24,786 nucleotides of DNA. Origin: a virus. Under the pieces are notes generated by a model. The model searched no databases, was not told the DNA's origin, and saw nothing but the letters and a program-made list of their open reading frames with translations. Below are positions 1,734 through 24,786 of this stretch, piece by piece; the first letter of the stretch is position 1; the number at the start of each line of letters is the position of its first letter. Made by a program: the position numbers and the translations under genes. The stretch is from positions 1-24,786 of IMG/VR virus record IMGVR_UViG_3300031841_000093. One strand, given 5' to 3'.

Positions 1734-4003
1734 TGCAAAAGGCACGAATACCAATTACAAACTTTCAGTATGGTGAGATTAGTCCGTCTTTGGTTTCAAG
1801 GACGGATTCTGCTATTTATAACTCGTCTGCACAATCAGTAAAAAACTTTTTTATAAGAACAGAAGGCGGTGTGGCTAAAAGAGGTGGGTTTCAAGCACTG
1901 CACGATTTTACTGGTGTAACAGAAGATACCTCAATAAGACAGCAAGTAAGATTAATACCTTTTATATTTTCAGATGATGAGCAATATGTAATAGCTTTTT
2001 CGCATCAGAAGTGTGAGATATTTTTTATTAACCCGACAACTGGCGCATTAAGTTTAGCAACTACACTTACTCAAGATGTAGACGGTGCATCATTACAATG
2101 GGATCAAGCATACTTGCATGAAATGACATATGCTCAAGGTGGTGATGTATTATTTGTTTGTCATAATACTTTTATGTGTCAACAGATAGTAAGAACTGGC
2201 TTAAATAGTTTTCAAGTAGAGCAGTTTACTTTTCAACTTCAAGCAGGGGATGCAAAGACTTATCAGCCGTATTATTCTTTTCAGCCTACTGGTGTAACCT
2301 TAGATCCGTCTGCTACTACTGGTAATGGTATTACGCTTACCACTAGTGCTTCATATTTTGATACAACAGGCAGTCAATCTGGTGGTAACTACCCTGATTC
2401 TAAGCATGTTGGTCTTACTTTAGTTTACCATGATGCTGAGATACTCATTACTTCTGTTCAGTCTGCTACTCAGGCAACTGGGAATGTGGTTGATGAGTTA
2501 TTCGTAGAATTAGATCCAAATGCTTTGAGAACTATTGATGGGTCTACTACAATAGAAATTACGCATGTTAATCATGGAATGGTAGCCAATGACTCTATTA
2601 CTATAAGAAATGCATCTGCTGTTGGTGGTGTAAATGCTGCACAGATAAATGGTTCAAGAACAATTCAAAAAGTAATTGATGAAAACAGGTACACTATTAC
2701 CGCAGGTTCGGCTGCTAATACTACTGAAGATGGTGGTGGTAATATACAAGTTGTAACTCATGCACCTACACAGCAATGGATGGAGCAGTCATACTCTTCA
2801 TTGCGTGGTTACCCTGCTGCTGTTGGCTTTCATGAGAATAGGTTGTGGTTTGGTGGTACGCTTTCACAACCTGATACTGTATGGGCTAGTAAATCTGGTT
2901 TATATTATAACTTTGATATTGGCGAAGCTGCTGATGATGATTCTCTAGAACTTGTTATGAGTATTGGTGAAGTGGCTACTATACGTCACTTTGTTTCTAA
3001 TAGAGATATACATATCTTTACCGCAGGTTCTGAGTTTTTTATTCCTACATTTGAAAACCAACCAATTACCCCAACAAACGCTAAAGTAAAAAGACAGACT
3101 TCTTTTGGCTCTACTTTTGTTAGGCCGCAACCTTTCTATGGTGCTACAATATTTAGTCAAGTTGGCGGTAAGATGATACGTCAGTTTGTGTTTGATGATA
3201 GTGAGCAAGCTTATAAGGCTGATCCTATCTCATTGCTTTCTTCTCATTTAATAAGCGACCCTGTTCAAATGTGTGTTGTTAGTGGCGCTGTAAACACGGC
3301 TGAGTCATTTGTTTTTGCTCAGAACTTTACTGGTGAGATTGCTGTTTATAATCTCAATCGTATTGAAGGAGTTGCAGGATGGACAAGGTTTGAGACTAAC
3401 GGATCATTTCATTCTGTTACTGCTATTGATAACCGTGTGTTCGCTGTTATTAAAACTGACCTTGGGTCAGGAACTAAAAGTTTTGTATTTACTGAACTAA
3501 ATCAAAACGTAAGTTTAGATCTTGGAAATGCATATACTGGTACGGCAGGAGTTTTTACTGTATCAAACTTTTTTGAGAATGGCGCTGAAGTCGATGTAAT
3601 AAGCGCCACAGACTACTTAGGTAAGTTTACTGTGTCTGGTGGCCAGATTGATGTTTCCGCTGTAGACGCCTCTCTCACAAGCTGTCAGGTAGGCTTTGGT
3701 TTTGATGTAGAGTTAAAGACTAACCCTATAGATGTGAATACCGCTATTGGCCCAGAAACAGGTCAACCTAGAAGTTTATCTAGAGTAATACTAGATTTAT
3801 CTGAGACCCTCTCTGTTTCGGTAAACAATAAGAAGTTAATAATAAGAAAAGTAAACAATGACTTTAGCCAACCGAGGCAAGCAGTCACAGGGAAAAGGGA
3901 GTTCTACTTACTGGGATATAATAAAGATCCTCAGATTACAGTAACGCAAACTGCACCTATGTTTATTCAAGTTAATGGTTTAGTCGCGGAGGTATCTTTC
4001 TGA
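1733..4003 (+). CDS. Tail nozzle / tube protein B-like
   Basis: 756-aa protein that by position and pattern forms the tail nozzle (T7 gp12 role). Residues about 9-55 carry a familiar phage signature: NFQYGEISPSLVSRTD, a KNFFIRTEGGVAKRGGF stretch, then beta-rich sequence. Residues about 265-345 hold an inserted module (ITHVNHGMVANDSITI, a GG turn, INGSRTIQKV, RYTITAG, GGGNIQV) of the type often labelled ubiquitin-activating E1 FCCH-like in phage tail proteins; here it is a structural beta domain, not an enzyme. A central RLWFGG and ASKSGLYYNFD region is also typical. The start is coupled to the upstream gene (TAATG) and the stop to the next (TGATG). Confidence 0.82.
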   Translation: MQKARIPITNFQYGEISPSLVSRTDSAIYNSSAQSVKNFFIRTEGGVAKRGGFQALHDFTGVTEDTSIRQQVRLIPFIFSDDEQYVIAFSHQKCEIFFINPTTGALSLATTLTQDVDGASLQWDQAYLHEMTYAQGGDVLFVCHNTFMCQQIVRTGLNSFQVEQFTFQLQAGDAKTYQPYYSFQPTGVTLDPSATTGNGITLTTSASYFDTTGSQSGGNYPDSKHVGLTLVYHDAEILITSVQSATQATGNVVDELFVELDPNALRTIDGSTTIEITHVNHGMVANDSITIRNASAVGGVNAAQINGSRTIQKVIDENRYTITAGSAANTTEDGGGNIQVVTHAPTQQWMEQSYSSLRGYPAAVGFHENRLWFGGTLSQPDTVWASKSGLYYNFDIGEAADDDSLELVMSIGEVATIRHFVSNRDIHIFTAGSEFFIPTFENQPITPTNAKVKRQTSFGSTFVRPQPFYGATIFSQVGGKMIRQFVFDDSEQAYKADPISLLSSHLISDPVQMCVVSGAVNTAESFVFAQNFTGEIAVYNLNRIEGVAGWTRFETNGSFHSVTAIDNRVFAVIKTDLGSGTKSFVFTELNQNVSLDLGNAYTGTAGVFTVSNFFENGAEVDVISATDYLGKFTVSGGQIDVSAVDASLTSCQVGFGFDVELKTNPIDVNTAIGPETGQPRSLSRVILDLSETLSVSVNNKKLIIRKVNNDFSQPRQAVTGKREFYLLGYNKDPQITVTQTAPMFIQVNGLVAEVSF

Positions 4004-4497
4004 TGAGTATTTTAAGTGTTTTAACTGCAAATCCTTTAGGCACTATTAGTACGTTATTGGGTTTTGCAGGTACAAAAAAAACCTATGACTACCAAAAAGC
4101 AGAAGCTGCAAGAAGAGCGGAGCTTGGTGTATTTGATGCTAGGCAAAAAGTTAATGAGTTATTCTTAGCTAAAGCTCAGGCAATAAGCGAAGGCAATCGT
4201 AGATTAGAGGATATGGAAAGAGCCGAAAGTCAAAACATTGCTATGTTTAGTGCAATGGGAAGGGACGATAGATCTGTAGATGCTTTTTTAAAAAAGAACA
4301 GACAGGTTGTAGCTGAAGATTTAGAAGATTTAGAACGCATGTCTAACTTGCAATCTGCTAAATATGCAACGGCTGCTACTCTTGATTATAAATATGGACA
4401 AGGCGCTGCATCAGGAATAAGGGCAGAAGCTAATATAAATCTATTAAGCAATCTATCTAGTTTATTAAAAAATATAGACATGACCCCAAAGGATTAA
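4003..4497 (+). CDS. Internal virion protein (gp14-like)
   Basis: 164-aa mostly helical protein with a hydrophobic start (MSILSVLTANPLGTISTLLG) and a long Ala/Glu/Arg-rich helical body (residues about 28-140). The position directly after the tail nozzle gene and before two very large genes is that of T7 gene 14, whose product is ejected and forms a channel at the outer membrane. Size is near T7 gp14 (196 aa). GGAGGT lies 10 bases upstream, and the ATG overlaps the previous stop in TGATG. Assignment rests on order, size and helical character. Confidence 0.7.
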   Translation: MSILSVLTANPLGTISTLLGFAGTKKTYDYQKAEAARRAELGVFDARQKVNELFLAKAQAISEGNRRLEDMERAESQNIAMFSAMGRDDRSVDAFLKKNRQVVAEDLEDLERMSNLQSAKYATAATLDYKYGQGAASGIRAEANINLLSNLSSLLKNIDMTPKD

Positions 4498-23602: not shown

Positions 23603-23659
23603 AAAAAGCGAGCGAAGCGAGCGCGAAATTTTTGGGAGGCCTTGCGACCTCCCTCGCTT
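23603..23659 (-). terminator. Composite hairpin / terminator-like element
   Basis: Minus strand: GGGAGGTC and GGCCTCCC (23653-23634) form an eight-pair stem (one G-T pair) with a GCAA loop. It is followed by CGCTCGC-type repeats and TTTTT (23607-23603). AAGCGAG (23659-23653) can instead pair with either of two CTCGCTT copies (23621-23615 and 23612-23606), the second running into the T tract. It lies just after the 164-aa gene stop and before the early promoter. Confidence 0.45.
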
Positions 23660-23661
23660 GA

Positions 23662-24156
23662 TCAAGCTTTCTTCTTAGCTTTGACCTCGTTATTATCTGC
23701 AAGCAGCGCATCCATCTCGCTGAACATTGCCTTGACATCATCAGGCAGTTCTGCGTCTGGCTTATCGCTGATTGTGGTAAACGTTGCACCAGTAAGCTCT
23801 TTGTATGCTGCCTGTGCTGCGGCAAGCTCTGACTGCATAACAGTCAAGGCGAACTTCTCAGCCTTGTATTTAGCCATAGATGATTGAAGCTTGTTAGTGC
23901 TTATCTCATCGCCTGAGTAGGAAGCGCGGTATCTGTTCATCCAAGTCTTAGCAGTTGCCTCTTGGTCTGCTTGTCTAGGAATCCAAAACTCTAGGTCTTG
24001 GATCTCTCGCTCTAGTTTACGCTTCGCATGAAACTTGAGCGTATCGACAACTTGCCAACCATCGGCCTTCGCAAAGCGGTCTAGGTTGTTGTTAGTAATA
24101 AATAGTTCTGTAGTATGAGTGTAAGTATCTACAATAGCTTTTATAACTTGTGACAT
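23662..24156 (-). CDS. Unknown 164-aa helical protein
   Basis: 164-aa protein from ATG 24156 (AGGAG seven bases upstream). An in-frame start at 24321 would add 55 residues of low plausibility. Begins MSQVIKAIVDTYTHTTELFI, followed by RFAKADGWQVVDTLKFHAKR and a long helical region with EKFALTVMQSELAAAQAAYK, an acidic ELPDDVKAMFSEMDALLADN part and a lysine-rich end. No enzyme motif recognised. It stands alone between a long structured upstream region and a terminator-like element, so it may be a separately transcribed early gene. Confidence 0.62.
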   Translation of the reverse strand: MSQVIKAIVDTYTHTTELFITNNNLDRFAKADGWQVVDTLKFHAKRKLEREIQDLEFWIPRQADQEATAKTWMNRYRASYSGDEISTNKLQSSMAKYKAEKFALTVMQSELAAAQAAYKELTGATFTTISDKPDAELPDDVKAMFSEMDALLADNNEVKAKKKA

Positions 24157-24602
24157 GTATTTTCTCCTATATCTATATATGTCTTTTCTTTCATTTGAAC
24201 CTGCCGAGGGAGTGGCAGGACAGGGGCGTATAGAAGTAGCGAGCAAGAGCCATATGCGCGGCAAGGCTGCGCCAAGCAAACTGCAATAGCAATAAACCAT
24301 GGCGGTGACCATCAAGAACAATTACGGAAGGTTCATGCAAAGCCGAGCGTTATGGCGCTCGGAACACCAACAAGTATGAAAGCCGTCATTGTACTTGTTG
24401 GACACTTGCCGTTGCTTCACAACGCCAATGACCTGCTACTCCCGAACAGGTCAAATCTCCCCCCTTCGAGGGGGGTAGGGGGGTGATAAAGAATCTCTTA
24501 TCTCTTCTCTTGCGTCAGGATGGAAGCCCGAAGGGTCGAGACTACAGGCTCGATTCACGACAGCCGTCTCGGACGCCCAAACATGTCAACCCATTGGACG
24601 CT

Positions 24603-24631
24603 ACGTCACTTTCATAATTACGCCACGTCAC
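24603..24631. repeat. Direct repeat ACGTCAC, 22 bp apart
   Basis: ACGTCAC occurs at 24603-24609 and 24625-24631, start to start 22 bases, which places both copies on the same face of the helix. Could be paired protein-binding sites. Short enough that chance remains possible. Confidence 0.35.
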
Positions 24632-24733
24632 ATATTGACAAGCTCTCAACAAAACTGGCATCAATGGGGGGAGAGAGGGAGAGGGGGGCTAGCAGTGGTA
24701 GCAATGGATAGTTCCCTTATATGATTGTTGAGT

Positions 24734-24771
24734 GCTTGAAGCGATCAGTTATCTGTTCAGCTTGAAGCGAT
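24734..24771. repeat. 12-bp direct repeat with internal palindrome
   Basis: GCTTGAAGCGAT occurs at 24734-24745 and 24760-24771, a 26-base period. The first nine bases (GCTT-G-AAGC) are a palindrome. Possibly iterons or operators; the series may continue past the window end. Confidence 0.6.
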
Positions 24772-24786
24772 ACGGCTAGATTGATT

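Follow-up and report, generated by a model that had tools for sequence, protein, structure and literature searches.

The window, the whole stretch of DNA that was analysed, is the complete 24,786-bp IMG/VR record IMGVR_UViG_3300031841_000093, and it comes from a podovirus that carries MCP, tail genes, terS and terL. The + strand encodes the capsid, tail and lysis proteins, and an early operon on the - strand runs leftwards from 24156. The structured core described here sits between the first gene of that operon (gene 1) and terS, which lies just outside the window and was placed via a relative, L023. Gene 1 is conserved among relatives (67-93% in A6); searches of PHROG and Pfam returned no match for it, its one close viral match is itself of unknown function, and its AlphaFold model is all-helical at low confidence (pLDDT 68). 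The first early genes of this phage group fall into seemingly unrelated families of 129-231 aa that share a late TG..[WY].P-like stretch, and in L134 the slot is taken by a 298-aa gene that by eye resembles ArdC.

The early genes of these phages overlap in kind with those of plasmid leading regions. The window encodes SSB-like, ERF and RecE/YqaJ proteins, L025 a DUF932 protein, and the isolate Pelagibacter phage EXVC031P Hodr both ArdC and an HTH-DnaT (DnaT-domain) protein. Tests of proteins from the window and from Hodr revealed no polymerase, helicase, primase or initiator, which would fit dependence on a start site recognised by the host; an RNA polymerase gene was likewise not found in the phage. 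GC skew in Hodr merely tracks gene direction, and direct DNA comparison of 23650-24786 with sequenced phages gave no match.

A preliminary description of the sequence had reported a dense series of nine hairpins at 24200-24574, in DNA richer in G+C than its surroundings and free of any credible open reading frame. The density is real: perfect local repeats with arms of at least 6 bases number 8, compared with 2.3 +/- 1.5 in dinucleotide shuffles (n=200; 0/200 reach 8), those with arms of at least 7 bases number 6 compared with 0.6 (0/200), and those with arms of at least 5 bases number 18 compared with 9.3 (1/200). The 10-bp perfect pair (24367-24376 with 24392-24401) is exact, the stem at 24537-24571 was likewise seen, the core has a GC content of 0.52 as against 0.41 in the early genes, and we too found no credible reading frame. 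Instead of nine separate hairpins, however, the region consists mainly of one long rod (module 1), a C6/G6 hairpin and a second domain (module 2), as listed in the table below. The rod has a minimum free energy (MFE) of -121 kcal/mol, and when both strands were folded against 100 shuffles it gave z -9.75 on + and -6.7 on -. Against 93 equal windows of the same contig (mean z -0.73, sd 1.56), it is a clear outlier. Sliding windows of 200 nt had masked the rod because they cut its arms, and windows of 264 nt resolved it. Pieces similar to the C6/G6 hairpin occur in several relatives, such as L012, L014 and L028.

Table. Features of the region between the early operon and terS (positions in the window)
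Feature	Position	Strand	Basis or remark
Gene 1 of leftward early operon, 164 aa	23665..24156	-	Template strand is the folding strand
Shine-Dalgarno AGGAGA of gene 1	24163..24168	-	Sequence
Module 1, 264-nt rod: ATTTGA...TCAAAT closing stem, three-way junction, terminal arm	24193..24456	+	z, shared fold, covariation
Invariant internal-loop motif GGAAGGTTCAT, 5' side	24326..24336	+	Invariant in all type A relatives
Invariant internal-loop motif ATGAAAGCC, 3' side	24376..24384	+	ATGAARGCC in all type A relatives
-35-like TTGTTG, non-template arm of folded duplex	24395..24400	+	TTG at gapless offset in 12/12 type A sequences
-10-like position, CACAAC in window, 17 nt past -35-like box	24418..24423	+	Weak consensus match in window
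C6-TTCGA-G6 hairpin, then second G6 run	24459..24475		Sequence
Module 2, Frpo/ssi homology domain GCGTCAGGATGGAAGCCCG...TTCACGACAGCC...GACGC	24512..24576	+	blastn to plasmids and F; covariation with F
Two TACGTCAC/CACGTCAC operator-like repeats	24602..24631		TGACGT-type sites recur here across relatives
Possible ordinary leftward promoter TTGTCA-N16-AATTAT, early operon	24614..24641	-	Score 9.3; not conserved across loci
TTGACA, near-constant distance from G-tract	24635..24640	+	Conserved across clade
Polypurine G-tract GGGGGGAGAGAGGGAGAGGGGGG ahead of terS	24666..24688	+	Conserved across IMG/VR clade, absent in Hodr

Scans with gene 1 and terS yielded related loci (L002-L017 and L031-L272), and the terS loci comprise 169 distinct upstream regions from a large clade of marine podoviruses. 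Almost every region tested carries structure in the slot between the first gene, which points left, and terS, which points right: in a set of 32 regions, most z values fall between -3 and -13 and the + strand has the lower energy in 31. Hodr has a structured slot too (z -10.6). The window's own rod, which we call type A, recurs at 77-97% in L133, L193, L194, L196 and L198, and a different, shorter rod with similar ends occupies the slot in L004-L010 and L012-L015. As judged from these sequence relationships, pieces of the region are exchanged between phages.

Covariation in homologues, which the preliminary description had proposed as a check, was found in the rod. Matches of the pattern search that lacked module 1 were dropped after blastn, and changes were counted on a gapless alignment drawn from two fixed invariant anchors, GGAAGGTTCAT and ATGAARGCC, because MAFFT misaligned remote type A members. 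The relatives have the same rod fold; both partners have changed in 10 of the 19 rod pairs (covariation score 0.586 vs 0.169 shuffled, and at most 0.09 in slid controls), and 94% of cells pair, compared with 72 +/- 3% in shuffles. The 10-bp perfect pair is not conserved among relatives; what they conserve is the pairing of TACTTGTTGG with the distant CCATCAAGAAC. Base stems reach further, covering the Shine-Dalgarno sequence, start and first codons of gene 1 in 64 of 142 loci, and their arms pair better with their own partners than when swapped (-80 vs -46 kcal/mol). At the extreme, in L246, L227, L088 and L152, the right arm repeats the whole of gene 1 in inverted form, the gene-length repeat of L246 having 357 paired positions, 32 G.T and 1 A.C. 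Giant inverted repeats are also listed for L086, L075, L179-L183, L108 and L110; in such repeats the first early gene recurs, wholly or for the most part, as a diverged inverted copy that makes up the intergenic region and is kept pairable on one strand.

The preliminary description had left the strand open, and mismatches within the helices now assign it. Helices were predicted on both strands and their G.T and A.C mismatches counted on +, where every A.C corresponds to a G.T on -. Across 54 clusters, the ratio of G.T to A.C on + was 84:25 in rods (sign test 34:6) and 58:2 in base stems, and the plasmid and ICE loci with the module 2 motif, described below, gave 28:4 on the same strand. The bias is absent from the control, coding DNA of gene 1 (29:46). 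The excess of G.T in rods and base stems therefore identifies + as the strand whose fold matters, by a test that is blind to whether the folding molecule is RNA (G.U) or single-stranded DNA (G.T).

What kind of element this may be is indicated by module 2. A blastn search with 24500-24580 matched 3,023 plasmids (up to 81% over 69 nt, E 4e-10), of which 2,521 are predicted conjugative. Plasmid F is matched at two sites 5.4 kb apart (E 1e-7 and 2e-5) that fit Frpo2, upstream of ssb, and Frpo1, and the positions and spacing agree with the published Frpo1 and Frpo2, single-stranded-DNA promoters required in vivo for early leading-gene expression (PMC9849209). Frpo elements are known by the thousand in conjugative elements (PMC11541004). 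When phages and F are taken together, module 2 is 97% paired vs 88% in shuffles, with compensating changes. A relaxed motif matched 78 bacterial contigs, and at 72 of these loci a leftward gene with a Shine-Dalgarno sequence starts to the left of the motif, at a distance that is nearly always 200-500 nt. The strand bearing the motif is the template for the nearby genes in the window and equally in F and IncF plasmids, where these are ssb or genes next to it (ssb, psiB, ardA), so that the motif on + and a gene start to its left on - form a common orientation. On these matches, homology of module 2 to plasmid Frpo/ssi is close to certain. Together with its variants, the module is recognised by pattern in at least 43 of the 169 phage regions, Hodr not being among them.

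Searched against sequenced phages, the F motif matched a Sphingopyxis phage and a gokushovirus only. In the gokushovirus WZ-2015a, an ssDNA phage (L356, 1601-1665), the Frpo-like module is on the virion strand just after VP1, between VP1 and VP2, and is perhaps a complementary-strand origin. The Sphingopyxis phage VSN-002 (L357), which has its Frpo-like module at 4001-4060, is a dsDNA phage with telomere resolvase, ERF and YqaJ proteins. Frpo-like modules also occur in beta- and gammaproteobacterial contigs resembling ICEs (L276-L353), where neighbouring genes, which we name from their start sequences, are presumably DUF932-like and RadC-like.

The region shares several features with Frpo1 and Frpo2 of F and with ColIb-type and other conjugative Frpo/ssi elements (PMC9849209; PMC11541004): the homologous module 2, an adjoining long and imperfect but stable stem-loop on one strand (here the 264-nt covarying rod), a folded strand that is the template of the first-expressed genes, starting some 250-450 nt away, the same G.T strand bias, and SSB among the neighbours. 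It differs from them in that its carrier is a tailed dsDNA podovirus and not a conjugative leading region, a location that belongs to the known distribution of these elements and not to their mechanism. It differs also in that no sequence similarity between module 1 and the Frpo hairpin of F was detected, module 2 alone being similar, and in that module 2 goes unrecognised in many relatives. Type A relatives keep promoter-like boxes in the folded arm, with a TATnAC-like -10 (TATTAC, TATACC, TATGAC or TTACAC) 17 nt after the fixed TTG. The corresponding CACAAC of the window is far from TATAAT and is the weak point of a promoter reading, against which it also counts that ordinary leftward promoters are present in some loci.

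Between the early and late units, relatives carry TGACGT/ACGTCA operator-like repeats. Their G-tracts take the form GGGGGGAGAGAGGGAGAGGGGGG, G7-N6/7-G7 or GGGGGGGAAGAGGGAAGGGGGGG, and one contig (L032, 1-90) ends in a long C run where the G-tract belongs, probably through a sequencing or assembly failure there.

We interpret the region, which lies upstream of the early operon, as a phage-borne element of the Frpo/ssi type that would act on single-stranded DNA as promoter and primer site, and put the probability of this reading at roughly two in three. It predicts promoter or primer activity in the phage and presumes a stage with a single-stranded + strand, for example rolling-circle or strand-displacement replication. 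That strand would fold into the rod together with module 2, host sigma-70 RNA polymerase would start on the folded duplex and copy the + strand leftwards, and the product would be early-gene mRNA, an RNA primer for complementary-strand synthesis, or both.

A narrower form of the same reading, in which the element is a complementary-strand replication start only (an ssi or primosome site) without early transcription, is possible but doubtful. Frpo is reportedly a primer site as well, to judge by the title of a 1997 paper by Masai and Arai, and the virion-strand copy in the gokushovirus, the failure to find replication enzyme genes in the phage and the DnaT-domain protein of Hodr all agree with replication. 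Against it, the element is followed directly by the first early gene, the base stem reaches that gene's ribosome-binding site in relatives, and type A keeps promoter-like boxes in the folded arm. The preliminary description had offered a replication or packaging region as one of its two suggestions, and the replication half is near the mark, priming of DNA synthesis being a further role of Frpo. A cos or pac packaging signal appears extremely improbable: the region adjoins terS, but its one-strand bias, its Frpo homology and the tie of its position to gene 1 all speak against packaging. A primer RNA of the ColE1 kind, forming an R-loop at the G-tract, would suit a phage in which no polymerase or initiator gene was found and a conserved G-rich tract follows the structured region; it is nonetheless very unlikely, as no consistent rightward promoter precedes the rod, Hodr lacks the G-tract and the homology points to Frpo.

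The other suggestion had been a large ornate RNA like GOLLD. Transcribed from +, such a structured noncoding RNA would account for the strong fold, the covariation and the G.U bias, and a few loci (e.g., L033 and L046) have T-runs after the rod. Like GOLLD, ROOL and OLE (PMC12286853), the region is large, strongly folded and gene-free; unlike them, it has no Rfam match. Searches of the window and 20 relatives at gathering and permissive thresholds returned nothing above the gathering score, no rightward promoter consistent across loci was found ahead of the rod, and module 2 matches a DNA element of plasmids, so the ornate RNA is unsupported, although the structural excess and the covariation are real and no credible reading frame was found. 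In relatives, moreover, the 5' arm falls within gene 1 and can take up the whole of it, and we regard this reading as improbable. A structured leader on the - strand controlling translation of gene 1 would sit directly upstream of the ribosome-binding site, and the stem does cover the Shine-Dalgarno sequence and start codon in relatives. On that strand, however, base-stem mismatches number 8 G.U vs 137 A.C, and because they are A.C rather than G.U, an RNA of - strand sequence would fold worse, which leaves the leader with very slim odds. Proximity to terS also raised the CBASS-activating cabRNA of staphylococcal phages, another structured nucleic acid near that gene, which was rejected: cabRNA lies within the terS/terL coding sequence (PMC10686824), whereas the element here is upstream of it, with no promoter found for the favoured strand.

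Apart from conjugative elements, two phage systems invite comparison with the proposed Frpo/ssi-type element. Phage N4 is a dsDNA podovirus whose early promoters are template-strand hairpins for a virion RNA polymerase. The present phages resemble it in being dsDNA podoviruses with hairpins on the template strand of early genes, but the hairpins of N4 are very small and serve a polymerase that the phage injects, whereas those described here span hundreds of nucleotides and belong to a phage in which no RNA polymerase gene was found. The complementary-strand origins of phiX174 and G4 are ssDNA hairpins that start complementary-strand synthesis. They serve ssDNA genomes, unlike the element studied here, and the gokushovirus copy of module 2, after a capsid gene, can be likened to them by its position.

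Single-stranded-DNA promoters have been described for conjugative elements, whose DNA enters as one strand (PMC9849209; PMC11541004), and we found no report of them in phages in the literature searched. Comparing G.T with A.C mismatches in stems offers a simple, sequence-only test for the working strand of any DNA hairpin. A bolder proposal, which we advance as speculative and rather unlikely, is that in a widespread clade of tailed marine dsDNA phages the first genes are read from a genome that is single-stranded during entry or immediately afterwards, as happens in conjugative plasmids, with one strand bare before dsDNA expression and with some members folding the whole first gene into a hairpin of >400 bp. 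More generally, a Frpo homologue placed ahead of early genes in the right orientation, and bearing the same strand mark, suggests a functional single-stranded stage in these phages, and it offers a direct test of how transcription and replication start in polymerase-less pelagic phages.
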